Below are positions 1,851 through 45,100 of a stretch of DNA of 64,000 bases, one piece after another (position 1 is the first letter of the stretch; every line of letters starts with the position of its first letter). A program made the position numbers and the translations under genes. The notes under the pieces were generated by a model. The model was given only the letters and a program-made list of their open reading frames with translations, was not told where the DNA came from and did not search any database. The DNA is from Phallus indusiatus. Taxonomy: Eukaryota; Basidiomycota; Agaricomycetes; Phallales; Phallaceae. The DNA is taken from the NCBI GenBank assembly GCA_027605045.1, contig JAQFWX010000002.1:2108001-2172000 (forward strand), written 5' to 3'.

Positions 1851-1867
1851 GTAGAACAAGCTTCTAC
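1851..1867 (+). other. Primer-binding site, self-priming type
   Basis: The 17 bases after the LTR are themselves palindromic (GTAGAA..TTCTAC) and contain AGAACAAGCTT at 1853-1863, complementary to 1743-1753 in the LTR. No TGG-type match to a tRNA 3' end is evident. Elements 2 (8445-8461) and 3 (about 9532-9548) carry the same site with at most one change. This fits Tf1/sushi self-priming, in which the 5' end of the RNA folds back to prime minus-strand synthesis. Confidence 0.75.
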
Positions 1868-2014
1868 TCGCAGACTGGCCGTTTTTATCGACACTCGTTA
1901 TCGAAAAATCGCGCTCGACACCGACTATCGCAGTGTCGTATTTTTCCTTCGAGTCCCGTCTATAACCGACCCCTCTGCTCCATCTTAAAAACACCATTTT
2001 CCTTTCTCTCTCTC

Positions 2015-7266: not shown

Positions 7267-7277
7267 AGGGGGGATGG
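7265..7277 (+). other. Polypurine tract of element 1
   Basis: The purine run GAAGGGGGGA lies at 7265-7274, immediately before the 3' LTR, and overlaps the pol stop codon. It would prime plus-strand DNA synthesis. Confidence 0.85.
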
Positions 7278-7673
7278 TGTCAGGGTACGCTACCGCTGTC
7301 TCTCATTTCCTTGATTATTACCATCGGCATCACTTCATTTCTATTTTATTTATTATTTCCGTGTTTTACTTTTACTTTCCGTTTCCTTGTTCTGTCTCTA
7401 TTTCACTTTCTCTACTCGCGCGCGTCGCGCGCTCGTACCCGGCGTGATGCCCGTGACATCACGTCGCTTAGATTCGGCTTGGGCGCCTGGCACTTAGCTG
7501 TGCCAGGGCCGCACGCCGCGTCGTCGTTTATGTATATAGTAGCTGTACCTAGAGTGAGGGTCCCTAAGCTTGTTCTCTTAGGATCCCCTCCCTCTAGGTG
7601 AGTAGTTAGTATCTTCCCAATATATGTTCTCTTAGGATCCCCTCCCTCTAGCCTGAGCTGAGTAGCCCTAACA
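7278..7673 (+). repeat. 3' LTR of element 1
   Basis: This is a 396-bp direct repeat of 1455-1850 with a single difference seen (T at 7296 versus C at 1473). It ends CCCTAACA and is followed by the target duplication GTTCC at 7674-7678. Confidence 0.96.
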
Positions 7674-8317
7674 GTTCCCACTTTACTAGAGATCTCCCGG
7701 TCTAAACCTTGTCGATAATACGTCGTCAGCGCAAGGCCATCATGAATCGTAAATCCAGCGCGATCTACGATTATGCGAAACGCGTCGGTGTAATCGTCTA
7801 CATTTCGACCTCCTTGAGCATAACGTCCCGAAAGAAGGAGATTCAATGCATCCTCGGCTTCGGTCACTGGGAAGAATTCAGAACGAAACTTTTGTCGGAA
7901 ATCTTCCCAGGTCTCATAAGGAGCCAGTCCCCGGTTGTACTGGGCCTGAACAAGTTCGGCAAAGGCACCAGCGCGTCCACTATTCATGTAGGATAGTACC
8001 CAGATGACTTTGGTACTGAGATTCGGGAAATCGCCACCGCATACGCTCATGTAGAGTTCGACCGAGTTCCAGAATGTACGGCCATTTTTGCGATCTCCGT
8101 CATAGGCGAGAGGTACAGCAGGGCGAGTGTTTCGAGACGATCTTGTCTCGTTTTGAGGATTTGGAACCGAGGCTCCAGGATTAGGGGTGTTCGGATTAGC
8201 GGGATCGGCAGTAGAAGCCTGGGGGGGAAGAAGTCGGTTGAGATGAGTTACAAGCTCTTCCATTCTTTGTTCAATCGCAGTGAGGCGAACGATGGGATCA
8301 CTCTCAGGCTGTTCCAT
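7674..8317 (-). pseudogene. gag: Element 2 gag, N-terminal part
   Basis: The minus strand starts MEQPESDP at 8317 and encodes an N-terminal helical/proline-rich stretch followed by the Gag core (motifs SRNTRPAVPLAYDGDRKNG and TFWNSVELYMSVC), homologous to residues about 85-255 of the element 1 Gag. The frame runs into element 1 at 7673. When the insertion is removed, the codons continue at 1454. It is an insertionally inactivated gene. Confidence 0.9.
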
Positions 8318-8461
8318 GACGAAAGGAATCGAAGAACGAAGGGCGGAGGGGTCGTTTTATGGGCGAAAAGCGTCGGGAACGTCTGAGACACTGCTGACAA
8401 AGAGTTTCCGAAGGAAAACGACAATAGAAACGACCAGTCCGAAGGTAGAAGCTTGTTCTAC
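8318..8461 (-). other. Element 2 leader with self-priming site
   Basis: This 144-bp untranslated leader lies between LTR and gag. Next to the LTR, 8445-8461 reads GTAGAAGCTTGTTCTAC, the same palindromic primer site as in element 1. Its AGAACAAGCTT (minus strand) is complementary to the AAGCTTGTTCT inside LTRs of this family. Confidence 0.75.
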
Positions 8462-9170
8462 TGTTAGGGCGACTCAGGGCGCACACCTAGAGGAGGGAAA
8501 ACCTAAGATCTATTGGGGGACAACGACTAACTACTCACCTAGAGGAGGGAAATGTTACGGTACGCTAGCGCCTTGCCCTATTATTCGATTTCTTCGATTT
8601 CTTTCGATTTCATTTCACACTTCGATTTCCATCATTTCCCGTATTTTGTCATTTCCACTATTTTCATCGTTTTCTCGATCTCTCGATCTTTTCGATTTAC
8701 TTCGATTTCTGTCTGTATCTCCTCGGATCCCATGGGGATCAGTCGGGCGCCTCATATCCTGTACTTATATGCGATTTCCCTAGAGGGGGATACCTAAGCT
8801 TGTTCTCTTAGGTTTTCCCTCCTCTAGGTGAGTAGTTAGTCGTTGTCCCCCAATAGATCTTAGGTTTTCCCTCCTCTAGGTGTGTGCCCTGAGTCGCCCT
8901 AACAGGAAAACCTAAGAGAACAAGCTTAGGTATCCCCCTCTAGGGAAATCGCATATAAGTACAGGATATGAGGCGCCCGACTGATCCCCATGGGATCCGA
9001 GGAGATACAGACAGAAATCGAAGTAAATCGAAAAGATCGAGAGATCGAGAAAACGATGAAAATAGTGGAAATGACAAAATACGGGAAATGATGGAAATCG
9101 AAGTGTGAAATGAAATCGAAAGAAATCGAAGAAATCGAATAATAGGGCAAGGCGCTAGCGTACCGTAACA
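8462..9170 (-). repeat. 5' LTR of element 2, split by a solo LTR
   Basis: Plus-strand ends are TGTTAGGG (8462) and CCGTAACA (9170). The two parts, 8462-8552 (91 bp) and 8910-9170 (261 bp), add up to 352 bp, exactly the length of the solo LTR that interrupts it. The solo LTR is the same family in the opposite orientation, so together they form a large inverted repeat. Confidence 0.92.
8553..8904 (+). repeat. Solo LTR inserted in the element 2 LTR
   Basis: This is a 352-bp LTR (TGTTACGG...CCCTAACA) flanked by the 5-bp direct repeat GGAAA at 8548-8552 and 8905-8909. No internal region is present, so it is the product of LTR-LTR recombination. It contains a TATAT box (8766-8770) and the predicted RNA start AAGCTTGTTCT (8796-8806). 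It is near identical to the reverse complement of the LTR it interrupts. Confidence 0.93.
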
Positions 9171-20163: not shown

Positions 20164-20245
20164 GTGGAGGCGACGCTCCCTCTCGCCTGACGTCTTGGCT
20201 CTATTTGGATATATTCACCTCTGTGGTTTCCCAGTTCCTCTACAA

Positions 20246-20347
20246 TCTACTCTGGACTCTTTTTTCAAACGCACAAACATCTACTCTGGACTCTTTTTTC
20301 AAACGCACAAACATCTACTCTGGACTCTTTTTTCAAACGCACAAACC
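20246..20347. repeat. 34-bp minisatellite, 3 units
   Basis: The unit beginning TCTACTCTGGACTC and running through TTTTTTCAAACGCACAAACA occurs three times in tandem, at 20246, 20280 and 20314. The duplicated locus at about 41880-41912 has a single unit, so the array expanded after the segmental duplication. Confidence 0.9.
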
Positions 20348-20529
20348 GGGACGGAGAAACTCAGCGTTCCAATGTACTCGGCGTCATGGAGCCTTGAAGA
20401 TTTAAGTTTCATTACGTAGCATCACCCCCAGCGATCTTTCGCATTGATGCAGCCAATTTAGTGGATATCAATTGAACAAGAGTATTCTGAATGAAGCCGG
20501 TTAGGCCAATCTCCTAATTGCCCCATAAT

Positions 20530-20849
20530 TGTAACGCTTCGTTACTTTTTATAGTGTACCGCGTACGGTACACAAGTTTTATCACGCTGTAGTCCTCACA
20601 CCAATATAACAGACCAAGGGTGCTGTATTATTATGGTGTAAAAACAAAATGCGCGTGCTGAATCAGCACGCGCGTAACTACTACTAATGTACAGTTATTA
20701 CATAATGGCTCGCCGCGTCACGGCGAGCCAGAGGCGTTAAGCGCCTCTATTATTAGAAGTACTAATAGTAATTACTGCAGAGGGCGAAGCCCTCTGCATA
20801 TGCCCAAGTGGCATATACTCAATCCACCGCATACGGTGGATCCGTTACA
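20530..20849 (-). repeat. 3' LTR of element 4
   Basis: This is a 320-bp LTR with ends TGTAACG / CGTTACA. It is built largely of consecutive hairpins. Arms: GTAACG/CGTTAC (20531-20545), GTGTACCG/CGGTACAC (20554-20573), GCGCGTGCTG/CAGCACGCGC (20651-20673), GGCTCGCCG/CGGCGAGCC (20707-20729), AGAGGCG/CGCCTCT (20730-20748), TGCAGAGGGC/GCCCTCTGCA (20776-20798), ATATGCC/GGCATAT (20798-20816), ATCCACCG/CGGTGGAT (20822-20841). Confidence 0.95.
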
Positions 20850-20860
20850 TCCTCCCCTTG
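20850..20860 (-). other. Polypurine tract of element 4
   Basis: Read on the minus strand, CAAGGGGAGGAT immediately precedes the 3' LTR. It is the expected plus-strand primer position. Confidence 0.75.
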
Positions 20861-20911
20861 TGACTTGGACTCCAAGTCATGGGATCGCGAAGAGGAGGCG
20901 TCTGACTGTAA

Positions 20912-22664
20912 TCAGTCAGAGGGATTGCTGTAGTCAATCTCCATGCTCTCCGAGGCACTCGGATGCGGCGCGTCAAGGTCCTCAGGGGGCCTTAACAATT
21001 CCTCGTCCGTCATCTGAATTGGGACGGACGGGGAGTAGACCTTGTTAGGCTGGCCTGCCACGATGCTGGCAGGTGAAACCGACGCATGGACGGCGGGGGC
21101 GGACGACTGAGTCGTACGCGCCTTTTTTGTTGGACGATCCAGTCCACGGCGCACGCGATAGTCATGCGCGATGCGATTGACATCTTCTCCATTGGCGTAT
21201 CGTTGGAGAAGGGGCGCGATCACCTCAGTGACGCGTCTTGTCGTCGCTCCATTGGCATGCATGGAGCGAATCACCTCCTCTATGGTAATGGAGGAGGGGG
21301 ATTTGCACTCGAAGGAACGAGTGTAGCCTTCCATAAGCGTGGAAGGCAGGTGGGTGGAGGAATTACCCTTACCACCGAGAACTTCTTCCCACACAGTAAG
21401 TGCGGGGTCGAGGAGGCACTCAGCCGCCTTCTCGAGGAACTTGGCACGTACTTCACGAGTACGTGTGACTCGTTTGAGCCATGCGAACACCTCAACATCT
21501 TGAGGGTTTAATGATCCATCCGACATTAGTCGGATGTAAGGAGGGACCTGGTTAGGGTCCGCATTCCAAGTATTGATTAAATACTTGATCTCGGGTGTAT
21601 GAGTTCTCCCGAGATAGACACCACCGATGGACGGTTGGCGGCAGCCTCCATAGCTTCAAGCTTGGCGGTCTTTCTCGCCAGGCGACGCTCCTTCATGGAT
21701 CTGCGCCAGCGAGTCCATGCGTATGAAATACGCATGTGAACCCCCCTGTCATCGGGGTACGTGAACACCGGGGGGTCGGTCCAAACCCGGGTTCCAATCT
21801 CGACGAACAATGGTTCGTCGAGGCTGCAGGTGTTATACCATGCAGTAGGATTGGGGGTGCCAGGCACCAGAGAGTGATCCCCACTAACAGTGGGGTCGAA
21901 GCCCTTGACGAAGAAGGGCCATGGGTCCCGGTTGGAGTCCCATCCTGGCTTGGTCCGTGGATACGGACCAGAGGGTTTCCTTGGAGAAACCGGGGCAGCA
22001 TCGCGAGAGCCCGATGCCTTGGTTGCATCAGCGTAGGTACGCTGAGGTTTGCGTTTGGTGGACGACGCGATGGAGGCGTCGTCATCATAGTCGTTATCAT
22101 CGACTATGTCTTCCATGTCGTCGTCAGACGACATGTCGTTGAAAATATCAGGCAAAGGGGCTGCCTGGGATGGTTCAGGCGCTTTATCGGCCTGGTCTCT
22201 CGACCGCTTTTTGGAGGTCGATGGGGTAGTCGACGGGCCTGCCGTCGACACTGAACGTTCAAGTTCAGCAATGCGAGCTTTCAGCTCGCAGATACGACGA
22301 TTCGCATCGTCGAGGTGGTCTGTCAAGGATTTGACGTCCTTTTCAGCTTCTTCTAGACGTTCGTCTAGATGATAGTACTCCCTCCTTATGAAGGGAAAGG
22401 CCTTGTAGACGGCCTGCTTGACCATATCATGGTCAAGGATGATTGCCCGCTGCCAGCGGGGCCTGCCAGGTGACTGGCAAAGTCGTTGCACGCAGTGCAA
22501 CTATCATTGTTATGATAGACGGATATGCATCCGTCCATCGCGTCTAAGGTCCATTCGGACCTTTGCAGGGCCAGTTGAGCCTCTGCTTTTTGAACCTACT
22601 AACAGGTTGCGGCGTAGGCGACCGCGAGCGTGATCGTTCGCGTTGCTTTCCCTTGCTGTCAGGC
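20912..22664 (-). pseudogene. Element 4 ORF3: unknown coiled-coil protein, frameshifted
   Basis: An extra gene lies between pol and the 3' LTR, on the same strand as the element. I do not recognise it. A likely start is the ATG at about 22664 (MPDSKGKQRERSRSRSP, a basic Arg/Ser stretch). After two shifts comes a Cys-containing patch with CTAC, then a long open part (22500-21577) with a predicted coiled coil (HLDERLEEAEKDVKSLTDHL and following heptads), an acidic Ser/Asp tract, and a C-terminal part (to 20912) with INTWNADPNQVPPYIRL and a basic helical region. Total coding length is roughly 580 aa. The frame changes near 21596-21607, inside a hairpin loop. No signal peptide or membrane segment is visible, so an envelope-like role is not supported; position alone resembles accessory ORFs of other LTR elements. 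Confidence 0.6.
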
Positions 22665-22800
22665 ATGGGGGGTGTTGAGGGAGAAAAGACCGTGAACGGA
22701 CTTTTGGGTTATATACTTGGGCGGCCTCATGGAGCGCCCAAGTGAAAATTACCTCACCGCGTAGCAGTGAAGTGCCAGTGGATCCCTGTGGGTGGGATCT

Positions 22801-25800
22801 TCAAGCAGATCCCCGAGTGGGATCTGGGCGCTTGTTGCTGGTCCGCGACTCTCCGTGATTGGATAGTCGTGGCAGCTGCCGAGGCTCGTTCACGCCTCGT
22901 AATTGCAAGTACTCGTCTAGAGCTTGCAAGTCCTTACAGTTACTGTAAGGTTCCCAAGTGGTATCCCCAAGGGTCCACTGGACTAGGAACTCGAGATCTT
23001 TCTCGCGAGTTCCACTCCAGCGATGAGCTAGGAGTTCCTCGACGTGCCATTCAGCATCGTCTGGCTGTCCAAAATCATACGCCGTGAGTGTATCGCAGCG
23101 TGGAAACCTCTCGTCGTCATTAGCGATGTGAGGTTTAATCAAATCCACGTGAAATACGGGATTTATGCGACGTTGCTTGAGCTCCTCAGAGAGCTCAAGT
23201 TTCACTGTGATATTGTCTTTAGCGGACAATATTTTGTATGGTCCCACATAACGCGGGATCAACTTCTTAACTCTCCCCTTGGGGAGGTTGAGGTTCCTCG
23301 TCGACAGATAGACGAGGTCACCCTCTTTATACTCCGGTGCATCGCGCCGTGAGTTGTTCGCGTAGTGAGCCTGTTTAACGCGACTGGCTATGATAGCGTC
23401 ATGCGCTATCATGAGATTCCACTTTGCCTGTTGAGCAAAGTGTTGAACACCTTTGAATTTGGTGTTCGTCTCAATTTTCCTTCCCAAACTGGGAAGATAG
23501 CCGTAATTGAGTTCAAACGGCGCGAAACCAGTGGTTTCGCTGGTGCTGCTATTAATAGCAAACTCCACCATTGGGATCCTTTCGGCCCAATCTTTTGATC
23601 GTTCTGTATCACGGAACGAAGTATTTGGCCAATCGAGCGATTGGCTCGCTCGGTAGATCCATCCGTTTGCGGATGGAACGCCGTGGACATGAGCAATCGT
23701 GTCCCCATTAGGCGTTGCAGTTCCTGCCAGAACTTGGCAGTGAATCGTGCATCCCTGTCACTCACGATTGAGTCAGGGACACCGTGGAGTCTTACGACTT
23801 CACTGAGGTATAACCAGGCTGTGCCCTTGGCGGTCAGCTTGGTGGTGGTTGGCATCAGACGAACCATAGAGGTCAGTCTGTCAATCACGACGAATAGGAA
23901 GTCGTGGCCGTTTGAAACGGGTAATGGACCGACGAAGTCCATTCCAATCGATTCCCAAGGTCTATTGGGAATCGGGAGTTGTTTTAACAGACCACTGGGG
24001 TGATTATTCTCCCCTTTATTGGTCTGGCACGTTCCGCAGGATCTGCAGAACGTATCGATGTCTTCAATCATCGATTTCCACCAGTACGCTTGTCTAACGT
24101 ACTGAGACGTTTGTAACGTCCAAAGTGCCCAACAATTTGGTGGGCCTCACTGATTATAATCTCAGTGATCCTCCTCCCCTTGTAAAATGCGTTATGGGGA
24201 CGCATAATACATCGCGGAGGAACTGATTCTTGGTAAAGATCAGTTGATTTTTAATTCCAAACGCCTTGTGAGCGTTTGGGTTGGCAAGAACCAGCTTAAA
24301 TACTGGGTCCTTGTGATAACCTTGCTGTATCAGCGAGGTAAATTCAGCAAAGCCCTCAATTTTGGCTTTAAGAAGCTTGCTGTCTTGCTCTGCACTTAGA
24401 GCAAGTATATCCTCATCGGATTGCGCTTCTGTAATATCAGAAGGTGTAGTATTTGAGGGACCTTCAACTCGAGGTTCCTCTCGTACTCGTGAACGTGTAA
24501 TAACGTTCACTCTCACTTCATCCCTTCTTTCGATGGGAAGATGATCCCCTTCGGGATCAAGTCTAACGTCAGCATTGACGTATACCTCCGGAGGGTGAAC
24601 CTCATCCGGAGTGTCCTCTTCGTAATAACGAGAGAGGCCATCGGCGACATTGTTAGTGACGCCCTTGACATGAATCGTCTCGTAGTCAAAACGAGACAGG
24701 TATTCATACCACCGTGCTTGACGCGGTGACATGCGAGGCTGGGTCTTGAAGTGGACCATGGCCTCGTTGTCCGTTACTAGGGTGAATCTACGCCCTAGTA
24801 GTTTGTCTTCCCACTTGAGGAAGGCTTCAAGTACCGCGATGAGCTCATGCTCATGGGTGCGGTAGTTGTATTGAGCAGGGGTGAACTTCTTCGAGAGAAA
24901 CCCTGCTGGCCTACACGTTGCCATGTAGGCCCTTGCCCATAATAGGCACCGACGCCACATTTAGAGCCGTCGGTTACGACCCAAATTGGATCTGGGTCGT
25001 CCACGTTAATAGGCTTCAAGATAGGAGCCTTTCGCGTGAGTGCTTTGATTGAATCAAAGCACTTGTTCAACAACGGCGTCCATACGAACGGTCTGTTGTT
25101 GTACGTACACCCTGATAGTGGTGTAGTGTATGCGGCTACCCCTGGTAGGTATGCCGCAACGTATTGTACGAGGCCCAGAAATTTCTGGACATCGTTATAC
25201 GTGCGTGGAGTTCTCCACTCACGTATTTTGTCCATCTTCTCGTGATCGGGATGGATGCCATCATCGTCGATGATGTGGCCTAAGCACTCCAGTCGCTTAG
25301 AGTACAAATCAACTTTACGACTACTTAGGTAAAGTTGTGCTTCTCGCAGACGCGAGAAGGCATTCTCTAGATGCTGCTGATGCAGATCTATTGTGTTTGA
25401 ATAGACGAACACGTCGTCTATGTATGCATCCGTCGAACGACCGATGCAGTCCCTAAATATGTGAGTCATCAGACGTTGAAACGTCGATGGGGCATTACAG
25501 TCTCCTTGCTGCATGACATGGCTCTTGAAAGTGCCATAGATGGTGGCAAAGGTCGTCTTGTGGACGTCCTCTGGGACTATGCGTACTTGCTCGTACGCCT
25601 CAGTCAGATCAATTTTTGATCTGTATTTGTGTCTCGCCACGTTCTGGCGGATGGTTTCCTGGTCAGGGAAGGGCGTTACGTCCTTCTCTGTGTTTTCGTT
25701 CTGCAGGCGCAGATCGAACACGGTCCGTAGTGCTAGGACTACGGCTCGTTTCTGCAGGCAAAGCATAGGGATTGCCTGTGTAGCTACAGTTGGTTCCCAC

Positions 25801-25922
25801 CAGCCTGCAGCTACGTATCGCTGAATCTTTTCAGCGAGTAGCGCTTTGAGCGCATCCGGACACCTGGGAAGGTGGTACCGGATCTTCTTATTGGGCTCAA
25901 TAAGAGGAATCTGGTGATTCAC
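22801..25922 (-). pseudogene. pol: Element 4 pol: RT, RNase H, integrase, chromodomain
   Basis: Four overlapping open stretches make one Ty3 pol: RT (25922-24795, opening NHQIPLIEP, catalytic YIDD), RNase H (24960-24154, with THEHELIAVLEAFLKWEDK), integrase (24071-23409, CxxC of the zinc region, then DFVG, SDRD and the E of DGSTERAN), and the integrase C-terminus with chromodomain (23571-22801, WHVEELLAHRW to WEPYSNCKDLQALDEYL). The integrase histidines (AHQIVGHFG) lie between two stretches. Frame changes occur near 24193-24199, 24916-24923 and 25928-25933, each fitting loss of one base in a homopolymer within a hairpin loop, plus one near 23590. The catalytic motifs are intact, so the copy is either freshly broken, mobilised in trans, or affected by base-calling errors. 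Confidence 0.88.
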
Positions 25923-28900
25923 TTCCCGAAATGGGGAAGTCGGGAAGGGACAGGACCGAACAGGTCACTGTACTTGTTCTTCCAGTACTCGATGAGTGCT
26001 GGGATATTCTCTTCCGTCATCTCAGGGACGGAGGAGCTGGAATGTTGGGTGCTGGCTAGCACCATCGCTCCTGTTTCAGGAGCGTGTCCAATCACATGGT
26101 GATTGGTGTCAATCACCTCGCCGTCGCGGGTGATTGTACCTCTGCTGAAATCCAGGCAGATGTTGTAGCGTCTCAGGAATGGGACGCCAATGATCACATC
26201 ATAGTGATCGATGTTGACGATGTCAAAGTACTCTTGGACATCGATACCTCCGAATTGGATTCGGGTGTACGTTCCATACTGGATGGAAGACTTGCTGCCC
26301 TTAACGGCCAGCTGCAGCACGACAGGTTTGTCGAGCTTGAAGGTTCTTGCCCCGGTGGCAAGAGAGAAATGAGGGGACATGATCATCCCCTGGCATCCAC
26401 TGTCGACTAGGCAGTGGGCCAATTGGCCATTGACTGGCCAGAAACCCTCAATGGGTCTCGATGCGTTTCGGTCTCGTGTTGGGGCACGAGAGCTCACTCT
26501 AGCCGTATGGTCATAGAGTGGTTCCTTGCTCGTAGCGAGCGAGGACTCATTGTCATCCAATGGCGATGACTTGTGGACCGCGAAGTGCAGTCTGCGCTCC
26601 TCATACTCGTCACCAATTGTGAGGAGCATGTATACACTGGGACCATTGTCATCATCGTCCCATTGGTATTGGATGCCCTCGTCGTCCTCGACGGGGTCGT
26701 TGGTGGGCTCGTCTTGGGCCACCTCTTCCTCCACAGCTTGTTCAGCTGTGGGGTCTTCCACGTTCTCCTGCGGGGCATCGTTCGATGTCTCGCCAGAGGT
26801 CTCTTCAACCTCTTCGATACGACCCACATTGGCTCGTACCTGTCTCAGTCTGGGGCACGCATTTCTGTAATGTCCCACCTGCCCACAGTTGAAACACGTG
26901 GGAGGGGTAGTGCTAGTGCGATTGTTCGTACTAGTTGGGGCAGTCCTAGCGGGCTGCGAGTTATGATTTCTCGAGCTTGATGAGCTCGAGGGGCGATTCC
27001 CCAATGGGGAATTGCCATTAGTTCGCGTCTCATGAGGACGCGCAGAGGGACCTTGGTTCCTCTGGTTCAAGCGCATATTGTTTGAATGCGCTTGTCTGGC
27101 CAAGTTGGTGTGGCTGCTGCTGCTGCCACTACCACTACTGCCACTACTACCCGTTGGACGGGTAGTGCTTCCTTGGGAGGCCGTTATCGACCTCCGCTTC
27201 TTGAACGCCTCCTCTACTTGGATGGCGAGTGCAAGAAGTTCCTTAGCAGACATCTGCTCAGGACTACCGCCTCTGAATGCTACTTCAGCGGCGAGGCTGT
27301 GGTTCAGCCCATCAAGGAACCTCCTCCTGAATGTATAATCATCAGGAGGGTGCGCTAGTCTGTTGGCTAGCGTGAGTAACGCACTCATGTATTCGTGTAC
27401 AGAGTGCGATCCTTGCCGTTCGCGTTCGAACTGGATCGCCACCTCACTTCTCGAGTGGGGTGGGAGGAATCGTTCGTGTAGTCTCCGTAGCGGGGACTAG
27501 GGTCCACTCATGCATGGGACGAGTACCTCGTTCCACGTTCTGGGTGAACCACTCTTGTGCCAACCCTTCTAGGCGCATGCCTAGAAAGGAGAGTTGCTCT
27601 GCTTGGCTGACTTCTCCAAGCAGGTGGTTTACGCGTAGCCAGCGTAACAGACCCGACACAAAGTTGTCGAAGTCCTCGGCTCTGGACGAGCCGCTATATG
27701 TGGGCGGGAGCCCTATCTTCGCTCCTGCTTTCGCAAGGGCGAGTTGCCTGGCATCATATCCCTGTTTGCAATCAGGGCTTCTTGAACCATGGCTATGACG
27801 CCCTCAAGTACTGGGCGTCGTCGTTGAAAGGGTCAAACCTTTCAACACGTTCCTCATCGAACGGTGTGGCGCGGAGATCCTCGCCATACTGTGGTCGACG
27901 AGCGTATCCATCATATGGATCGATACGTGGTGCTTCTGCTGGGTTAGCAGATGCTTGCCTCTGCCCATTGGGCTCGGCACTTTGCCTTGGCAGTTGTCTG
28001 CCAGGGGTGATGCTCTGTCGTCTGGACGACTTGAGCTTGTGGCTGGGTCTGGCGATGGGATCCTATCGCCAGTGATGGCATTATAGCCACCTTCAAGCAC
28101 ACGAGCATGGCGGACCGCGTTCATACGCGCGTCCTCGCGATGCGGATCCTATCTTGGATGATCCGCATTTGCTGCTCGTTGGGAGTGTCAGTCTCGAGAG
28201 AGCCTGCTACAGCTTCCTCGAGCGCGTTAGTGGCCGTCTCCACAGCCCGTGCATGCGTACGGATTGCTCTGTCGGAGAGTAGCCTTGCTATCCTCTGGTA
28301 TTCGAGGGCAGCTTGGGCGACCACTTCAGCATCCTCTCGTGGGGTGCTCCATTTCGCGACTGGTTCACCAGTCGCGTGGCTATCTCGGTATCGATATAGT
28401 CACCAACCGCGTCAGACTCGTGAGGCGGTTGTCTTGTGAAACGGTGCATTCGTCTCACTGTTTCTCTGCCAGCCTCTATTTCGGGGCCGGGGTTTCTAGG
28501 AGCTGTATATGCTGTAGCTCCTTGAGTAGGAGGTCTATCAGGACGCGTACTCGGTCCTGGGGTAACGTTCTGGGAACGTTGTCTGGTGCCTGTTGGTGCA
28601 GGCTCAGGGGATTGGGAATTACCAGCTGTCGCTGGTGACGGACTGGCATATGTCGGTCCCGTCGGTGTAGCAAACCTAGCTTGTGGGGCTGGGTTTGTGA
28701 ATTGATAGGCAAGGCGACTCGTCGGCCCTGCTGGTCTAGGACGAGTAGATCCCGTACCTGGTGCAGGCGGGTCTACCGCTCTGCTTTTTCCTTTGTCAGA
28801 GCGTGCTCGTGCAGGCTCTGCTTCAGGAGACAAGTCTGTTGTCCTGACTTGGTCCCTGTCAGAGCCCGTGGTAACAGGCTCTGGCTCGGGGTTTTCAACT

Positions 28901-29310
28901 CCTGCGTTGACATTCTCGATTAATCGAGCTAGTCTCTGCAGTTCTGACGGGGACATATTCCCGTTCCTCACGCCATCGAGTAACGATGCGTGAACAGCGT
29001 TCATCGTCTCGTCCCTTCGGATGGACCTGTCGCTCCTGACGCTAAGTCTGGAGCGACCAGATGCTACGGACTTTACGTCCTCATCTTCTTCATCAGCGAG
29101 TTGGGGCTGATGTTCCATCGTCTGCGACGCAGGACGAGTGGGATTTTGTGTTGATGCATCCACTCTCTCCCATGTGGATGACTCTCCTTCGAGGGTTCCT
29201 TCCCTAGACGGGTCGGGATTTTCGGTTTGCACTGGCCCGGGTGGGTCAGGCTGATTGGAATCAGGTGTACCACGATCTGGTGCACTCTGACTCCTGGTAG
29301 TAGGAGCCAT
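25919..29310 (-). pseudogene. gag: Element 4 gag and aspartic protease, frameshifted
   Basis: The start is ATG at 29310 (MAPTTRSQSAPDRG), 86 bp inside the LTR edge. The N-terminal 340 residues are Ser/Pro/Glu-rich and probably disordered. The Gag core follows around 27660-27300, with motifs such as RLEGLAQEWFTQNVERG and DDYTFRRRFLDGLN. A CCHC knuckle (CFNCGQVGHYRNACP, about 26910-26860) and an aspartic protease (CLVDSGCQGMIM, about 26420-26380) complete it. The reading frame shifts near 28300, at one or more points in 27660-28130, and near 27443. The stop at 25919 abuts the RT frame at a hairpin with arms ACTTCCC/GGGAAGT. The protein should form the particle; as sequenced it would not be made in one piece. 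Confidence 0.8.
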
Positions 29311-29395
29311 TGAATCCTCCTGTAATAGGAAGGGTTAATTTCGCTTGCTTAATACAGCGGCGGGTTGTTTTTAACGCCTTTGGTGTTAAAAAAGA

Positions 29396-29714
29396 TGTAA
29401 CGCTCGTTACTTTTTATAGTGTACCGCGTACGGTACACAAGTTTTATCACGCTGTAGTCCTCACACCAATATAACAGACCAAGGGTGCTGTATTATTATG
29501 GTGTAAAAACAAAATGCGCGTGCTGAATCAGCACGCGCGTAACTACTACTAATGTACAGTTATTACATAATGGCTCACCGCGTCACGGCGAGCCAGAGGC
29601 GTTAAGCGCCTCTATTATTAGAAGTACTAATAGTAATTACTGCAGAGGGCGAAGCCCTCTGCATATGCCCAAGTGGCATATACTCAATCCACCGCATACG
29701 GTGGATCCGTTACA
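29396..29714 (-). repeat. 5' LTR of element 4
   Basis: This is a 319-bp copy of 20530-20849. It differs by loss of one T in the loop of the first hairpin and by A at 29577 for G at 20712, which breaks one pair of the GGCTCGCCG stem. It is followed by the target duplication ATAAT (29715-29719). Confidence 0.95.
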
Positions 29715-29744
29715 ATAATGTATAATACAAATGCCAAGATCTAG

Positions 29745-30810
29745 CTACTTTTTGCATTCTGTCCATCTTGTACCATGAACAAAATGTTTGAAACAGAGTT
29801 TTGTGAACTTTCCTCGGTATGTAGTTATCAAGGACATGCTTGGATACCACAAATTCCTTCTCATCTCCCGCGGAATCCAGAATAGAAGTTCACCGTGCGA
29901 GCCCAACATCCAACCATCTATGAGTGAAGAATTCTTCCAAGGAAAAAACATTGCTTTATTCCACGCCGTCAGTGCGTAATCTAGTACCTCAGTATCTTCG
30001 GAGTGTAGATTGTAATCCTCAATCGATCTAGCCAAACACTGAGTAAAATACTGGACTGAATAGCCAAACTCATACCGTCTAATTTGAAGATACCCAAATT
30101 TCTCGGCGTACTGCGGATCATTTATATGATCGATACAAATGCGTGTCATGATCTCGCACACGCGCAAATCCCACACCATCGCTGTTCCGTCCACTTTGAC
30201 AGTGAAGAGGCTGTCTCCATCTAATGCCATTGGGTATCTCCAAGGCTTGTCCATAAAATACGGATATATGGGTGATGGTAAAAGACACTGCGCGACTATA
30301 TTTTTAGTCTGTATATTCCAGATATCGACACGATCCGTTCTGTCCGCGGGGCCCAATACATATATCCGCTCGGAGTCATTAGAGAAACAAAACATCATGC
30401 AACGAAACAACATGTCCTCATCGTTGAATGGGTACCCATCTAGCCCAATAATATCCTTTTCCATATCCCAGAGATTCACTTTATTCTGATCTTCAAGGGG
30501 TATCCAAGCAATGTATTTTCGATTTGGGGAGAATACTGGAAGGTGGTTTGTATTGAAACAACCAATGCTTGCACCTGTTGAGTGGTCTAAAATATCCAGT
30601 TTGAACATAATACCATTTTCATACTCCACACGCGCGCATATATGTGTATCGTTGGAAGAGACGAAGATTGAACGGATAGATGGATTGATCCTTTCAGGGA
30701 AATCATCTTCCTCGACGACGATTGAACGGTCACGTAGATCACGCGGAAAGGGCCCATTGATCGTTTTATGCGATTCCGAATCACATTCCTCGATGAAAGC
30801 CTGTTCATCT
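29745..30810 (-). pseudogene. NLR gene B, separated C-terminal WD40 part
   Basis: The stop TAG is at 29745-29747. The minus strand encodes the last ~350 residues of the WD40-type region, almost identical to the end of gene C (for example VDIWNIQTKNIVAQCLL and AMVWDLRVCEIMTR). A 1131-bp transposon at 30811-31941 separates it from the rest of the gene and shifts the frame, so this part is not expected to be translated with the N-terminal portion. Element 4 sits 26 bp beyond the stop codon. Confidence 0.88.
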
Positions 30811-31941
30811 CATCAGTAATCTGGTTTCGCGGCGGGCGCCTAAATTCTGATCTCAGATTTGGGCCGTATTTCGCCCTTCGTCTCGGATGCTTCAAATTAG
30901 TCCCAGAGCGATCTGGGACCGTCTGAGACTTCAGTATTTTTCGAATTTTTATTTGACCCTATGTGAAATCATTAATCTATTATGTTACTAAGTATGTGTT
31001 TGTCCTGATTGTCTTGACCCTTTTTTTAACCAAAATTGCGCGCACACCTTTATCCAGCTTGTTCATATGAAAGCAACAGTTGACTCGGGCAACCAATCAG
31101 GGCACGCCGCGGCTCGTTTGTGTCACGGCGTGACTAAGCACGTTTGCGCACCATAAGTTTTTCGAGCGCCACTACTTCGAACTATACAGTTTCTTTCTTT
31201 CTCTCTCACATGCACAATTTCGTCTTGTACGTCTCCTCTTCTTTTCTATGGTTAAAGGTAAACATTTCTCCTATCACATGTCTGTTCTTCTCATCGATAG
31301 TTTTATTTGCAGGTTGTTATATTTTATTTATGACGGGTGAGTTTTTTTTCTTGTTTTCAAAAGCGGACTTTAACTCAATCCCTCGCCTAGCTGTCTACTT
31401 ATCCGGCCCATGACCACCGTTTTCGAGCGAGCTTATTTATCGGTATGTGAAAATTCATCCTTTTTTCACTCTTCTGAACTAGTTACAGATCTCAGTGCAA
31501 TGGATCTTTTGACAGAGCAGTATCCATGGATGTGTGTCTTGTTTTTCCTTCTCACTTTTTTTTAAGCTCTTGAATTCTTTAAATACAGGTTGGCATAGGT
31601 TTTCAAAGGATATATTTACTATCTTATGCTTAGTACTATATTTGTAAATAGTAATCTTATATACGTATATTGAATAAAAATGACTTTAAAGAACATAATT
31701 TTATTTGGAAAAACATTCTGAACTGACGGGACGGCCACAGATTGGGCCCAAAGTTGCCAACGGTCTCGGATAGTCTGGGACCATAGGACAATCCGGACAC
31801 CCAACGGTCCCACTCGTCCATACCTTTTTTATTCAGGTCTGAGATTTGCGAGATTCGCTGAAGCTATCCGGCCTGTCCCATCGGCTAAATCGTCCCAGAC
31901 CATCCCTGACCGTCCGGGCACACTTGCCCAGATTACTGATG
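30811..31941. mobile_element. 1131-bp TIR transposon in NLR B (non-autonomous)
   Basis: This insertion into the WD40 exon of gene B is absent from gene C (43190-43195). It has perfect 14-bp terminal inverted repeats, CATCAGTAATCTGG (30811-30824) and its complement (31928-31941). The only flanking duplication that fits the empty site is CT (30809-30810 and 31942-31943). Subterminal regions carry several copies of TCTGGGAC/GTCCCAGA-like motifs in both orientations, as seen in hAT-like elements, but an 8-bp duplication expected for hAT is not present. No transposase ORF is visible. The superfamily is uncertain. Confidence 0.8.
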
Positions 31942-34900
31942 CTGTTTGATATGCAACCCAAAACGTAGCGCCCGTTTGAGAGAAGGTAAGAGCCGTCACT
32001 TTGCTTGATACTCTATTGCAGCTGCTCAAAGTACGGGTGCGGACATCCCATACTTTAATATTGTTCTTTTTATCACAGCTTAAAAGGCGGTCACCACTTG
32101 GAGAGAATGCGAGAATGGTGAGTGGTTCGTCCGGTTCGTCTATAGTGAATACTTCCTTTTCGTCGATGTTCCAGAGACAAAGAGAAGACGGTCGATTGAT
32201 ATCAACATAAGCAATGGTCCAACAATGATTATTTTCCGGAGAAATTTCGGCGAGTGGTCGGTAATTAACCAACACAGGGGCGGCGTTTAAGACAGCAGTT
32301 CCCGCAGGATCCAGGACTCGAAGGTCTCCTGCTTGAGATTTAAATCTAGTCCCCCCTAGAATGACATGTTCTCCCTTGTGCCAAGCTCCACTAGTTTCAT
32401 AGAGACCTAGCACCTTGTTAATATCGTCTTCGTCCTCACTCCTGTTGTCGATTTCCTCCCGATCAAGGCCATCCCATGCTAAAACATGTATTGTACCAAT
32501 GTAGCTAACTGCTATGTGTGTCGCATTGGATGATAGGGCCTCTACCTGTGTACTGTAAAGAGGGTGATCGCGTCCCACAATGCGCCGTGAGTCCTTTCCT
32601 GTCAATAGATTCCGGATCAAGCACCTGTTTTCGACAGAAAGGAACAAATATTCCCCATTCGAGAACCCTGCTGTCAAATTTGGGTGGCGTTTCTGAAACA
32701 GGCAAACCATTGTCCTTGTCTGTATGTCATAAACCTCTATGTCACAAGGCTCCGTGTTACAAAGCCAATCGCCCCCGAAGCTAACAATGACGTGATTGTC
32801 GCTTAATGCCACTAATCTGTGATCCTCGGTGAGCGATACAAAGAAAACAAATGTCTTTTCTTGAATATCCCAAAGTCGCAACACCTCCCCTCCGGGCTGA
32901 ATGCCAATGAACCTTCCTGTTGAGGAGAACATAACCTTGGCCCAGCAACCTAAAGTGTCTTCAAAGGGTTTGACACCAGTCTCTCTCTCATAGCAAATAA
33001 CAGCGTTATCGGTCTCGAAAGCAATGAAACGTCCATCCGGAGAGATACAGCAAAAATGGCATCCTTCTGGTGCAATTCCTTCGTTGGACTCGTATGAAAC
33101 ATTCCTCGTATTTTCCTCCCAGATCAAGATACCTCCATGTTCATAACAGCAGTAAACCAGTTCTCCATTCAATGAAAATACGATATCCCTGACACGCGCC
33201 TTTTCTTTCGGACTCGTCTGACAAAGCATTTCGCCAGTGATATAATCCCACACCCATAAATCCCCGTTTTCGAAGCCAGTTGCGATTTGTTTGTTTTGAG
33301 GGGAGAATGCAAGTTTCGCAAGCGATGATGAGGGGTGCTTTTGGAAAATACTGTTTTTGAATTGAGGCTCGAGGGATATAAGTTGACCGACATCCACGCT
33401 GAAAAGGTGCGGATACTGAGGAAGAAATTGTGATGATATGAATGATTCCTTTAAGATATAAGGAAGGGCGGAAAGGTATAGATGGGGTGTACTCTCCGTC
33501 ATCATCTTTCCAAATTTGAACAAAAATTGTGATGCCTCTTCTGCGAGTGAAGCTAATTTAGGATACCTATCCTACGTATCAAATATTTTAATTTTACACC
33601 ACACATAAATTGTGAACACTTACTTTTGCCATACTTATTAGCATCTGCATTCCAGAACGACCATGATTATATACCTCCGCTAAGAGACTAAGCACTTCAA
33701 ACAAGGGCAGTAATTGGGTGCGAAACAAATTGTTGATTTCACCCAGAAGGTCATCAAGTTTCGAATATTGCAAGTGATACGCCCAAAAACAACATGCATA
33801 TGACAAGCACGATGGAATTGCTTGTGCCACTCGAGATTCAAAATTCGGTATGTCTCGATTGCGTTTGTGTGATGTTTCTAGCTCGCATATGTTGAACCGG
33901 AGCATCTTATTCATGACCCGTAGACATGCGTCCGTGAAAAAACTTTGGTCCGATGTATCGATGTAATATCGGTTCGGAATTCCTGATGTTTGTTTGGGTT
34001 CGAGGAAAAAGTCGAAAAGGGAGGCATGTATTGGTCGAAGTTTGACAGTCAATTTGTCAATACCGATGAACAGGGAATTCAACACCTTCAATACAGCTTT
34101 GACATCATGACTGTCCCCGCAAATAGGTCCAAAAAACCCCTGCAAGTCCGAGACTGAAAGTGGTTTCCGTGCAACCATAAGTGCCCCGACGCATTTTTTC
34201 AACATATCGACATATTCGGCATCTCCACATTCTGGATGAGAGTCGAGGATCTGGTGATACATCTCGTACACAGAGGAGGGAGGTTTGGAAAGGACGGCTT
34301 TTAGTCGCTGCGCTGCTTTAAATGAGTCGAATTCCAGTATGTGAAGACATGTAAGTCTAGCCCATATGAATAGGTTTTGAGCTTTATAGGTTAATAAATT
34401 CCGCCAATTCTCGTCTACCACATCTAGGGTCTTCGCCATGTCGGAAAGCTCATTGGAGATGAATTTTTGGATGTCATTTTGGGTATCAGCAGGGTCAATG
34501 TGTGCCATATGTTTGCAATGAACGTTCGGATGTTGATAGAATCGTGCAATGTCGTGTTCGGGACGGGACGTTATTATGATACGATAATTGCTTGGAAGAT
34601 CTGAGCTTCGTTCAAAAAGCAAGGGCAGAAGGTTCTTGCGTTCCCTTTGGCCACCGCTTTCGTCCAGAGCATCAATGACAATGACCAGCCGCTTAGTCGT
34701 ACCTTGGGACGGCTTGATAATCATCTCGTTGAATTGCACTTCGGGATCCAACGACTTTCTAGTCGCGATCTTTTTGACAGCCTGTACGAGATTGCGTTTC
34801 CATAAGACATTGTGATCGGCCAGGTTGCGAGAAATGGTGCTGAATAAGTACTTGACCAGCTCTTTATTATTCTGGCTGAAGCAGAAAAATGATCCAAGTT

Positions 34901-36415
34901 GATCATTTAAATTCTTCGCAATTGTATGAGCGACTGCGGATTTCCCGGTTCCTGCCTGTCCACTGAGGATGAGAACTCGTTCGGTCGTATCCTTGTTGAC
35001 CCACTCCTCTATCTCTTTGATGAGCATTTCACGAGTTCCAGGTAGGCATTTCTTCTCCTCGGCAAGTCCTACGTCACGAGCATATGGTATATCGTTAAGA
35101 AGATTGTGAACCTCTAACATGTAATATCTAAGGAACCAAGTATACGTACTAGGAATAACGAATACTTACCCATATTTGTTGCTATATCAAGCAATAAGAG
35201 ATCTTGATTATTTTTCATGATTTGATCAAATGAGTCCTTGAACTCTGAGATTCTGTCGTTGAGGATTGGTCCTTTTATGAGGTTCGTAGCTGAATCAAAC
35301 ATCACATTAACTTAGAACGAAAAGAATAAGAAAAAGTAGGCACCTGAATTATTCTCTGTGTAATCCTTGATGAATTCCGCACATTCGCAAGTTTTATCGA
35401 CAAGAAGTCTCAATTGGTCGGTTCGAGTGTCTCTGAGAACGGACAGTCGGTCCGCTTCATTTATGTATTCGTAAATGAACAACAATTTCTCAAGCAATCC
35501 TCTGATATTGTCGGTTCGAGCATTATTCGCTTGAAGAATCTGACAGGAAGATAAGTTACTGTGTAAAATGGAAACCAAACGCCGGCTTACATTCGGAACC
35601 ATGGACGCAATGCTCCAAATCTGTTGGGCCAATGGATTTAAAGTTAGGATTAACTTACTAGCTAGTAGTAAAAAAACAAACCGAAGCAACAGGATCTATT
35701 GCCGTCTTCACGATTCCGAGATAAGTGAGAAACGTGGACCAGGATTTGCCTTCTGCAAAATGGATATCCTTGCTCTTCTGCATTGCTATGTCGAGCATAT
35801 CCTTGAAGCGATCTTCCTTGATGGCAAAGCTAAGCTGGCTTTTCTTGCCCACTTGAGCGTTACAAAAACCTGGAATAATTTATAGATGAGAATTAAGAAC
35901 GAATACTGCGAAACATACCGGATGATGTATTAAGAAGATCGGACACGACAGTCGTTGTGTACTCTCCAATAGTCTCCGACTTGTCTTTTTTCTCTTTTTT
36001 CATGAGAATCTTGAAGTGAGTTTTGAATTCGCCGGTGGTATTATAGCTTTTTGAATAGACTGGTTAGTCAAAAAGTCGGTGATTTTGTTAAATCTGGTTA
36101 TTAGCTTACAGAATCTGTTCGCTCCAAACAATCTGATTCCCCCGAGATTGTCCTTCGACCAACCCCAATTGCTCGCTATCGCTACCAATGATCTTGATAA
36201 TTTCAAGCAAAAATATCCGTTTATGGATTTTAAGGGAAGGAAGCGGAGGATTCGTTAGTTGAATATCTGCAAATATCGTCAAGCTGTGATATAGGTCGTG
36301 TTATTATTAATTCCGTACTAGAGATCGTATATCGACATTGCTCAAGTCTGGAAGAGAAATCAATTATTTTGATAACGCTAGATATCACATAATAGATTTA
36401 CAATGACGGTGTCAT
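31829..36415 (-). CDS. NLR gene B: C2-like, helical, NACHT, partial WD40 (truncated)
   Basis: Spliced minus-strand gene. I read exons 36402-36415, 36319-36347, 36110-36266, 35919-36046, 35682-35869, 35591-35653, 35344-35539, 35170-35289, 33624-35113 and 33571 onward. The first nine sum to exactly 795 codons. The start is the ATG at 36415-36413. The protein begins with a C2-like beta domain, then a helical domain (IYEYINEADRLSVLRDTR), then NACHT with Walker A GQAGTGKS and Walker B VIVIDALDESG, then WD40-type repeats. The transposon at 30811-31941 ends the frame at 31829 after a short foreign tail, giving about 1375 aa instead of about 1710. NACHT NLRs oligomerise on ligand sensing by the repeat domain and are linked to non-self recognition and cell death in fungi; here that role is inferred. 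Truncation probably inactivates sensing. Confidence 0.85.
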
Positions 36416-42120: not shown

Positions 42121-45100
42121 CTACTTTTTGCATTCTGTCCATCTTGTACCATGAACAAAATGTTTGAAACAGAGTTTTGTGAACTTTCCTCGGTATGTAG
42201 TTATCAAGGACATGCTTGGATACCACAAATTCCTTCTTATCTCCCGCGGAATCCAGAATAGAAGTTCACCGTGCGAGCCCAACATCCAACCATCTATGAG
42301 TGAAGAATTCTTCCAGGGAAAAAACATTGCTTTATTCCACGCCGTCAGTGCGTAATCTAGTACCTCAGTATCTTCGGAGTGTAGATTGTAATCCTCAATC
42401 GATCTAGCCAAACACTGAGTAAAATACTGGACTGAATAGCCAAACTCATACCGTCTAATTTGAAGATACCCAAATTTCTCGGCGTACTGCGGATCATTTA
42501 TATGATCGATACAAAGGCGTGTCATGATCTCGCACACGCGCAAATCCCACACCATCGCTGTTCCGTCCACTCTGACAGTGAAGAGGCTGTCTCCATCTAA
42601 TGCCATTGGGTATCTCCAAGGCTTGTCCATAAAATACGGATATATGGGTGATGGTAAAAGACACTGCGCGACTATATTTTTAGTCTGTATATTCCAGATA
42701 TCGACACGATCCGTTCTGTCCGCGGGGCCCAATACACATATCCGCTCGGAGTCATTAGAGAAACAAAACATCATGCAACGAACCAACATGTCCTCATCGT
42801 TGAATGGGGACCCATCTAGCCCAATAATATCCTTTTCCATATCCCAGAGATTCACTTTATTCTGATCTTCAAGGGGTATCCAAGCAATGTATTTTCGATT
42901 TGGGGAGAATACTGGAAGGTGGTTTGTATTGAAACAATTAATGCTTGCACCTGTTGAGTGGTCTAAAATATCCAGTTTGAACATAATAACATTGTCATAC
43001 TCCACACGCGCGCATATATGTGTATCGTTGGAAGAGACGAAGATTGAATGGATAGATGGATTGATCCTTTCAGGGAAATCATCTTCCTCGACGACGATTG
43101 GACGGTCACATAGATCGCGCGGAAAGGGCCCATTGATCGTTTTATGCGATTCCGAATCACGTTCCTCGACGATAGCTTGTTCATCTGTTTCATATGCAAC
43201 CCAAAACGTAGCGCCCGTTTGAGAAAAAGTAAGAGCCGTCACTTTGCTTGATACTCTATTGCAGCTGCTCAAAGTACGGGTGCGGACATCCCATACTTTA
43301 ATATTGTTCTTTTTATCACAGCTTAAAAGACGGTCGCCACTTGTAGAGAATGCGAGAATGGTGAGTGGTTCGGCCGATTCGTCTATGGTGAATACCTCCT
43401 TTTCGTCGATGTTCCAGAGACAAAGAGAAAACGGTCGATTGGCGTCAACATAAGCAACGGTCCAGTGAGTATTTTCCGGGGAGACTTCAGCAAGTGGTTG
43501 GCCTCGGTCAAAGATATCGTGAAAGATATCGTCAACGATCACAGGGGCGGCGTTTAAGACAGCGGTTCCCGCAGGATCCAGAACTCGAAGGTCTCCGTCT
43601 CGGATAAATCTAGCTCCCTTTAGAATAATATCTTGTCCCTTGTGCCAAGCTCCACGAGTTTGATAGGCAAGTGGCGATGCCTTAATATCGTCTTCGTCTT
43701 CACTCCTGTTACCGATTTCCTCCCGATCAAGGTCATCCCATGCTAGAACATGTATCGTGCTATTGTACTTAACTGCTATGTGTGTTGCATTGGATGATAG
43801 GGCGTATACACGGTAACCGAAAGTGAGGCATCGCCGTGAGTCCTTTCCTGTCGATACATTCCGGATCAAGCACTGGTTTTCGCCAGAAAAGAACAGATCT
43901 TCCCCATTCGGAGAGAATCCTAATCTGAAATATGGGAAGGATTCCTGAAACTGGTAAACCATCGTCTTTGTTTGTATGTCATAAACCTCTATGTCATAAA
44001 CCTCTCTGTCCTGAACTCTAGAGTCCCTGATGCGAACAATGATGTAACTGTCGCTTAATGCCTTCAATCTGTGATCCTTGGTGTGCGACCCAAACGAAAC
44101 AAATGTCTTTTCTCGAGTATCCCAAAGTCGCAACACCTCATCTTTAGGCTGAATGCCGAGGAACCTTCCTCTGGAGGAGAACATAACCGCATTGGAGTAT
44201 CTGTGGAAATTTGCCAGAATGTCTCCGAAGGGTTTGACATGAGTCTCTCTCTCACAGAAAATCATAGCTTCATCGGCCACAAAAGCAACGAAACGTCCAT
44301 CGGGAGAGATATGGCAAGAACGGCATCCTTTTGGTGCAATTCCTTCGTTAAACTCGTATGAAACATTCCTCGTCTTTTCCTCCCAAGTCAAGATACCTCC
44401 ATGTTCATAACAGCAGTAAACCAGTTCTCCATTCAATGAAAATACGATATCGCTGATATCCGCCCCTTTTCTCGGACCTTTCTGAAAAAGCATTTCGCCA
44501 GTAATATAATCCCACACCCATAAATCCCCGTTGCGGAAGCTAGTTGCGATTTGTTTGTTTTGAGGGGAGAATGCATGCGCATCGACACCTGCTGAGGGAT
44601 GTTTTTGCATAACACTGTTTTTGAATCGAGACCTGAGGGATATAGGTTGGCCAACATCCATGCTGAAAAGATGCGGGTACTGAGGAAGAAATTGTGATGA
44701 TATGAGTGATTCCTTTGAGATATAAGGAAGGGCGGAAAGGTAAAGATGAGGTGTGCTCTCCATCATCATCTCTCCAAATTTGAACAAAAATTGTGATGCC
44801 TCTGCTGCGAGTGAAGCTAATTCATGATTCGTGTCCTACATATCAAATATTTTAATTTCACACCATATATAAAAGGTGAACACTTACCTTTGTCATATTT
44901 ATCAGGATTTGCATTGCAGAACGACCATGATCTATCTCCGCTAAGAGACTAAGCACTTCAAACCAGTACAGTAACTTGATACGAATCAAGTCGTTAATTT
45001 CTGTCAGAAGGTCTTTGTTAAGACTGGAACGTTCCAGGTGGTATCCCCAGAAACAACATGCATATGACAAGCACGATGGAATTGCTTGCGCCACCCGAGA

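Follow-up and report, generated by a model that had tools for sequence, protein, structure and literature searches.

A Ty3-type retrotransposon of the fungus Phallus indusiatus is packed with short hairpins over its full length

The window analysed here is a stretch of 64,000 nucleotides from Phallus indusiatus (assembly GCA_027605045.1, contig JAQFWX010000002.1, positions 2,108,001 to 2,172,000), and it carries at 20530-29714 an element that its Pfam matches and long terminal repeats (LTRs) identify as a Ty3-type LTR retrotransposon with a chromodomain. An earlier, sequence-only reading of the window had proposed that this element is filled with short inverted repeats through its LTRs and all of its coding DNA. 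This is indeed the case: perfect stems of at least 8 bp number 72 in the element, as compared to 0.9 in dinucleotide-shuffled controls. Below we describe the element and its relatives, ask which strand folds and whether the pairing has been maintained by selection, and weigh the possible causes.

The features of the element are collected in Table 1. It is a young mobile element, and its two LTRs align with 318 identities, one mismatch and one gap. A presumed polypurine tract adjoins the left LTR, and the genes therefore lie on the minus strand. According to Pfam they follow there the Ty3 order of protease, reverse transcriptase (RT), RNase H and integrase; the integrase ends in a chromodomain (PF00385, E 1.2e-5, 25.6 bits at a cut-off of 25.1). 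The reading frames of the window copy are interrupted, with longer frames found in other copies. In its protease-RT-RNase H-integrase order, its SH3-like Tf2-1 domain and chromodomain, its TG..CA LTRs, 5-bp target duplication and polypurine tract, the element resembles the Tf2-1-like Ty3/Gypsy chromoviruses. It is unlike them in its full-length hairpins and in an extra 3' gene, the 307-aa frame of which has relatives in a sister family of the same genome (about 33% identity between the families). Pfam gave no match for the scanned frames of this extra gene or for the sister frame, nor for the two frames scanned in the N-terminal gag region.

Table 1. Features of the hairpin-rich retrotransposon (window coordinates, except for the sister locus L069)
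Feature	Position	Strand	Basis or remark
Target-site duplication ATAAT, left copy	20525..20529	.	matches 29715-29719
Hairpin array through LTRs and coding DNA; putative folding strand is the window plus strand, antisense to the genes	20530..29714	+	
Left-end LTR (3' LTR in coding sense), TGTAAC..GTTACA, 320 bp	20530..20849	-	
Polypurine tract AAGGGGAGGA in coding sense, adjoining the 3' LTR (presumed)	20850..20859	-	read from sequence
Extra 3' gene, two open frames (307 and 247 aa), function unassigned	20912..22500	-	open reading frames
Integrase (zinc-binding, core), SH3-like Tf2-1 domain, chromodomain; two frames	22801..24146	-	Pfam
Reverse transcriptase and RNase H; two frames	24154..25964	-	Pfam
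Part of gag, CCHC zinc knuckle, aspartic protease	25919..27496	-	Pfam
N-terminal gag region; several frames	27444..29334	-	relatives found for 28288-29334
Right-end LTR (5' LTR in coding sense), 319 bp	29396..29714	-	
Target-site duplication ATAAT, right copy	29715..29719	.	
Sister counterpart of the extra 3' gene	L069:780-1751		

We scanned for perfect inverted repeats with loops of 2-12 nt and compared the counts with those of 40 dinucleotide shuffles. Relaxing the stem length from the 8 bp given above, the element has 112 stems of at least 7 bp versus 4.0 expected and 180 of at least 6 bp versus 18.3; with loops of 2-14 nt, 119 hairpins of at least 7 bp are found, 111 of which can be retained without overlap. 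The excess is just as clear against a stricter control. When the coding segments were shuffled 60 times keeping both protein and codon use, the number of stems of at least 8 bp (loops 2-14 nt) fell from 56 to 2.6 +- 1.6, with a maximum of 7 in any shuffle, so that the density lies far above the codon-shuffled control that had been suggested as a check. As these comparisons show, the hairpin excess is independent of codon use and base composition. All 12 hairpins cited in the sequence-only reading were recovered in place or at most one base away. Its count of about 45 hairpins between 20530 and 22140 captured the high density, our own numbers for this segment being 55 stems of at least 5 bp (shuffle mean 13.9), 37 of at least 6 bp and 22 of at least 8 bp.

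The excess spans the element from LTR to LTR and ends at its boundaries. Four other stretches of the window contain 2, 5, 5 and 2 stems of at least 8 bp against 1.3, 1.8, 3.2 and 2.9 in shuffles; short stems are mildly enriched in one of these, 1-9000 (38 of at least 6 bp versus 20.1). A second Ty3 chromodomain element at 2015-7266, with an open frame of 1314 aa, served as a control within the window. It had been said to be free of the pattern, and its open frame (3322-7266) shows no clear excess, with 15 stems of at least 6 bp versus 11.6 +- 3.4 in codon shuffles. The spectrum of stem lengths drops steeply past 8 bp, from 52 stems of exactly 8 bp to 12 of 9 bp, and the loops of own-family stems of at least 7 bp peak at 3-5 nt and mostly measure 3-13 nt. 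Both LTRs take part: the left one holds hairpins of 8, 11, 10, 7, 10, 7 and 8 bp, and the 5' LTR is flanked by another at 29368-29392. The hairpins are not regularly spaced (coefficient of variation 0.94) and share no dominant loop motif. With respect to codon phase, the pairing phase with least synonymous freedom shows no clear depletion, judged by the chance split and by the counts of stems reachable by synonymous changes.

All DNA comparisons were made within one genome (67.2 Mb, 206 contigs). We scored the best 109 of 574 candidate RT relatives and the best 40 of 156 candidate LTR relatives. The own-family RT loci that were fetched (L031-L060, the window copy and 29 others) carry hairpins without exception, at 4.7-7.9 stems of at least 8 bp per kb in 30/30 loci. 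In L059 the long own-family match covers only 2811 of 4038 bases, yet this locus has 32 stems of at least 8 bp, the highest count of L031-L060. A degraded own-family relative, L065, is intermediate at 2.8 per kb. The sister family (L061-L064 and L066-L069) shares 71-80% RT protein identity with the own family and, in the fetched stretches of six loci, 61-67% DNA identity. We considered splitting the groups at 71% and 73% RT identity into separate families and rejected this; L063, L064 and L067 are 99.9-100% identical and therefore belong to a single sister family.

Sister elements have hairpins as well, with a different limit: the excess lies at 6-7 bp with little beyond, i.e. the stems stop at 7 bp instead of 8 bp. 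In L069, stems of 6 bp number 74 versus 16.0 expected, those of 7 bp 32 versus 3.6 and those of 8 bp 5 versus 0.8. Loops of sister stems of at least 6 bp peak at 7 nt and are mostly 4-8 nt long. Moving further away, a degraded relative with 59% integrase identity, L072, retains a moderate excess (7 bp, 16 versus 3.3). Families at 45-47% integrase identity show little (L070, 7 bp, 6 versus 2.5; L071, 8 bp, 4 versus 0.8) or, in the case of L073, no hairpin excess, and because of this the property seems to have arisen within this lineage. At the protein level 574 relatives were found at 48-62% identity; among the 120 listed, the few named ones are fungi, including Trametes, Pleurotus, Sparassis and Ceratobasidium (mushrooms and allies). 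Scans of viral and genome contig collections found no DNA of these protein relatives.

How the two families diverged tells us at which level the hairpins are made. The amino-acid divergence of pol from the sister is 0.246 in the 203 codons within stems and 0.265 in the 776 codons outside (p 0.65); in codons with a single stem base it is 0.38 (19/50). Third codon positions carry most of the change throughout pol, both inside and outside stems. Since amino-acid divergence is alike inside and outside, we read the hairpins as being made by codon choice and not by bending the protein. Of the 88 own hairpins of at least 6 bp in the aligned RT region, 13 have exactly the same centre as a sister hairpin, versus 1.1 in shifted controls. 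A number of these 13 have changed on both sides without losing the pairing, and one-sided changes in them favour antisense G.U. For the 52 own hairpins of at least 7 bp in this region, no more than roughly half of the cells hold Watson-Crick pairs in the sister, and therefore most hairpins have turned over between the families; changes on both sides that keep pairing occupy 22/382 cells (L064). The compensatory changes that the sequence-only reading had asked for are present in some hairpins kept by both families.

Variation among own-family copies addresses selection more directly. We projected 60 loci onto the window copy, giving 63 rows, among them LTR pairs from a single element, and separated variants seen in a single row from those shared between rows, with 7350 of 8866 sites covered by at least 10 rows; 23 further sites were left out because the window base is not the commonest there. 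Stems are defined on the window copy, and the resulting bias affects shared and single-row variants alike. Single-row variants do not differ significantly between stems (0.054 per site), loops (0.073) and other sites (0.063). Variants found in at least four rows, in contrast, spare stems over loops (stem 0.013, loop 0.036, other 0.019; stem versus loop p 0.0014), with the reservation that shared variants are not independent, given the common ancestry of the copies, and that both LTRs of an element may carry one variant. On the 30 RT loci alone the test gave 0.023 for stems and 0.051 for loops at four or more rows, and 0.026 and 0.024 at two to three rows. The kind of change differs too: transversions make up 1/47 of the shared stem variants (at least two rows) and 54/263 of those in loops and other sites (p 8e-4; loops by themselves 9/34), as compared to 8/78 and 58/375 among single-row variants (p 0.29, not significant). 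For 8 of the 47 shared stem variants the partner base is also changed in at least one row. As shared variants spare stems and single-row variants do not, the data support the view that pairing is kept in lineages that still replicate and decays in single copies.

Two side observations come from the same alignment. Among subfamily variants, an 8-bp hairpin was gained at 27221-27236 (6 rows) and one was lost at 25349-25352 (9/31 rows), the changes being distributed across the arms and the loop. Most single-row variants of the own-family rows (L001-L060) are C>T or G>A (198/331 outside hairpins), as if inserted copies decayed through deamination.

Where one strand has a G.U pair the other has an A.C mismatch, and imperfect stems can therefore reveal which strand folds. 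We collected the 90 own stems that combine a single internal mismatch with 7 or more Watson-Crick pairs and calculated expected mismatch counts from base composition. On the antisense strand G.T is found 38 times versus 17.7 expected (p 9e-7; 37 versus 17.3 without the second LTR), and there is no enrichment of antisense A.C, which is sense G.U (10 versus 12.3). In sister stems with one mismatch and at least 6 pairs, G.T accounts for 26/79 versus 16.1 (p 0.006); the control stretch at 30-64 kb shows no enrichment (43/209 versus 36.2, p 0.13). Compared with codon shuffles, antisense helices of at least 8 pairs that contain two or more G.U are overrepresented (49 versus 26.8 +- 5.1) and the corresponding sense helices are not (7 versus 8.2 +- 3.4). 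The variants agree: shared stem changes produce antisense G.U in 29 cases and A.C in 17, single-row changes in 30 and 40 (p 0.038), and outside hairpins this contrast is not significant (101:83 shared versus 137:143 single-row, p 0.22). As wobble pairs are enriched only there, the antisense strand is probably the one whose folding counts.

Predicted folding is extreme on both strands. In 150-nt windows, 87% (antisense) and 93% (sense) fall below z -2 in folding energy relative to sequence-order controls, and 83% and 88% of predicted pairs span no more than 40 nt, versus 55% in one shuffle. Few G and C remain unpaired, the fraction being 0.232 versus 0.284 +- 0.006 for antisense (z -8.9) and 0.270 versus 0.338 for sense (z -12.1; 12 shuffles each). 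In the sister the shift is weak (z about -2), and the hairpin-free element shows none.

Of the two causes offered at the outset, template-switch mutation and selection for a structured RNA, the former has left a single recognisable trace. This lies in the LTR hairpin at 20776-20798, which has 10-bp arms: its loop GAA is inverted to TTC in five other LTR rows (L018, L019, L021, L024 and L025, of which L018 and L021 form the LTR pair of a single element). This inverted loop is a natural trace of template switching, which is thus real in the element and rarely visible, with inverted loops in 1/173 own hairpins tested and 0/107 sister hairpins (eight loci). We found 77 clusters of variants; among the 34 listed, 7 at hairpins were followed at single-base level, and none of these has an overwritten arm, the changes extending over both arms, loop and flank. 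Asymmetry between the arms, which overwriting of one arm might leave, is not robust between families: the antisense 3' arm is the more diverged in own stems of at least 7 bp (p 0.05), and the sign is reversed in sister stems of at least 6 bp. Internal G.T pairs are no nearer to the loop, with 4.1 and 3.9 pairs on either side. If long arms invite switching, this may be part of why stems are limited to 7-8 bp.

To our knowledge, no other LTR retrotransposon has a comparable density of hairpins, and a literature search, the coverage of which excludes most subscription papers, returned no description of such an element. Pervasive folding through coding sequence is known from the genome-scale ordered RNA structure of RNA viruses. 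The element resembles these genomes in a folding energy far below that of sequence-order controls (z per 150 nt -4.0 antisense, -4.7 sense) and differs in being an LTR retrotransposon with perfect short stems and a sharp length limit; encoding reverse transcriptase and integrase, it is no replicase-copied RNA virus genome, and no RNA replicase domain is present among its Pfam matches. A further parallel comes from RNAs copied by Q-beta replicase, which, according to PMC6913131, are structured along their sequence with few unpaired G and C, hindering duplexes between template and copy. Structure throughout and few unpaired G and C are shared by our element; unlike these RNAs it is integrated as DNA, has a reverse transcriptase and shows wobble enrichment on the antisense strand only. 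The loop inversion in the 10-bp hairpin resembles template switching at inverted repeats in yeast, as described in PMC8604942, from which the element differs in the lack of arm overwriting in the inspected clusters and in stems held at 7-8 bp. Lastly, according to PMC10760457, miRNA (microRNA)-like structures in maize genes and transposable elements correlate with more small RNA; local structure within transposable elements is a common feature, whereas in our element short hairpins tile the full length.

Taking these results together, we regard selection on folding as likely, and as favoured over a mutational by-product. The best overall explanation, which we put forward tentatively, would be selected folding of the antisense strand, most likely to avoid double-stranded RNA in a host rich in RNA interference (RNAi). 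The host genome contains 33 matches to RNA-dependent RNA polymerase (RdRP) domains and 20 to Piwi domains, exon pieces counted singly; grouped, these amount to about ten and eight loci, some with stops. In the proposed mechanism selection would act on the whole sequence, favouring local folding into a chain of short hairpins. Antisense RNA, arising from a host RdRP or from antisense transcription, would fold while being made instead of annealing to the sense RNA, and Dicer would be left with little long double-stranded RNA. The limit of 7-8 bp would represent a length that suffices and stays below the arms of about 10 bp at which template switching sets in. We put RNAi avoidance first because unpaired G and C are as scarce as in the Q-beta rule and because the host has RdRP and Piwi domains; as the purpose of the folding it is somewhat less likely than not. 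It is doubtful whether one can go further and say that the lineage rewrote nearly its whole sequence, largely by codon choice, so that its antisense RNA folds as the RdRP makes it, giving a sequence-wide shield against silencing with a stem length tuned to 7 bp in one family and 8 bp in the other.

Several observations weigh against selected antisense folding and RNAi avoidance. Variants in at least four rows are not significantly rarer in stems than at other sites (p 0.14), those in two to three rows do not spare stems over loops (stem 0.019, loop 0.020, other 0.024), and in 9/31 rows an A.C-type change disrupts an 8-bp stem near 25349. In the aligned RT region 75 of the 88 own hairpins share no centre with a sister hairpin, and the G.T excess of the sister fades at 7 or more pairs (p 0.34). 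Folding energy is not antisense-specific, the z scores given above being similar on both strands, which is what an energy governed mainly by perfect stems would give. Dicer could also be supplied by the folded sense RNA, and the Q-beta rule requires both strands to be folded, whereas wobble enrichment is confined to one. Moreover, the DNA comparisons are limited to a single genome.

The main rival is selection on the folding of minus-strand complementary DNA (cDNA), which every LTR retrotransposon makes. Following RNase H action the antisense DNA is a long single strand, and hairpins would protect it or block its annealing to other genomes in the particle. This accounts for the antisense-only wobble enrichment, explaining the strand bias equally simply, and suits the many loops of 3-5 nt. 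We nevertheless think it rather unlikely, given that an excess of helices containing several G.U would on general grounds be expected of RNA more than of DNA, that purine-purine mismatches, although well tolerated in DNA, show no enrichment (GG 4 versus 9.2, AG 7 versus 13.7), and that it leaves the lack of hairpins in other Ty3 families of the genome unexplained. Selection for a structured sense genomic RNA, through packaging, stability or translation control, is quite improbable. In its favour, folding energy is as extreme on the sense strand as on the antisense, and unpaired G and C are few there, but sense G.U is enriched neither in one-mismatch stems nor in helices with two or more G.U, and the coding strand has to be translated and reverse transcribed. 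The antisense mismatch pattern therefore speaks against the packaging or protection of sense RNA envisaged in the sequence-only reading; the link to RNA silencing that it also named is possible and is the function that we rank first.

Alternatively, the reverse transcriptase or a host polymerase could switch template within imperfect inverted repeats and homogenise their arms without any benefit to the element. Most hairpins are placed anew in each family, which fits this view, and homogenisation in each cycle would likewise spare stems among shared variants, so the shared-variant test is not decisive by itself. Nonetheless we judge such a by-product improbable: inverted loops are as rare as reported above, pol divergence is not raised in stem codons, no arm is overwritten in the seven clusters, internal G.T pairs are not nearer to the loop, arm asymmetry is inconsistent between families, and stems stop at 8 or 7 bp instead of lengthening. 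Finally, an origin in chance, composition, codon bias or assembly error is contradicted by the shuffles, the in-window controls and all 29 of the 29 other own-family RT loci, and its probability is negligible.

The element presents a coding mobile element shaped over its full length by local folding as well as by its protein. If the antisense signal holds, it pinpoints the molecule, antisense RNA or minus-strand cDNA, whose folding affects fitness, and escape of a transposon from silencing that depends on RNA copying becomes testable. The own and sister families, with their different stem limits, constitute a natural experiment.

As for the surroundings, NACHT/NPHP3_N frames lie beside WD40 frames on the minus strand at 29745-35120, 42121-46381 and 57404-58348, forming a fungal NLR-like gene cluster. 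The retrotransposon adjoins the frame at 29745-30629, which has a weak WD40-type match (24 bits, below the cut-off). About 180 bp before the element, at 20245-20346, are three perfect 34-bp tandem repeats. The frame at 60526-61746 matches RNase H and, below the cut-off, zf-RVT; it is probably a remnant of a non-LTR retroelement.

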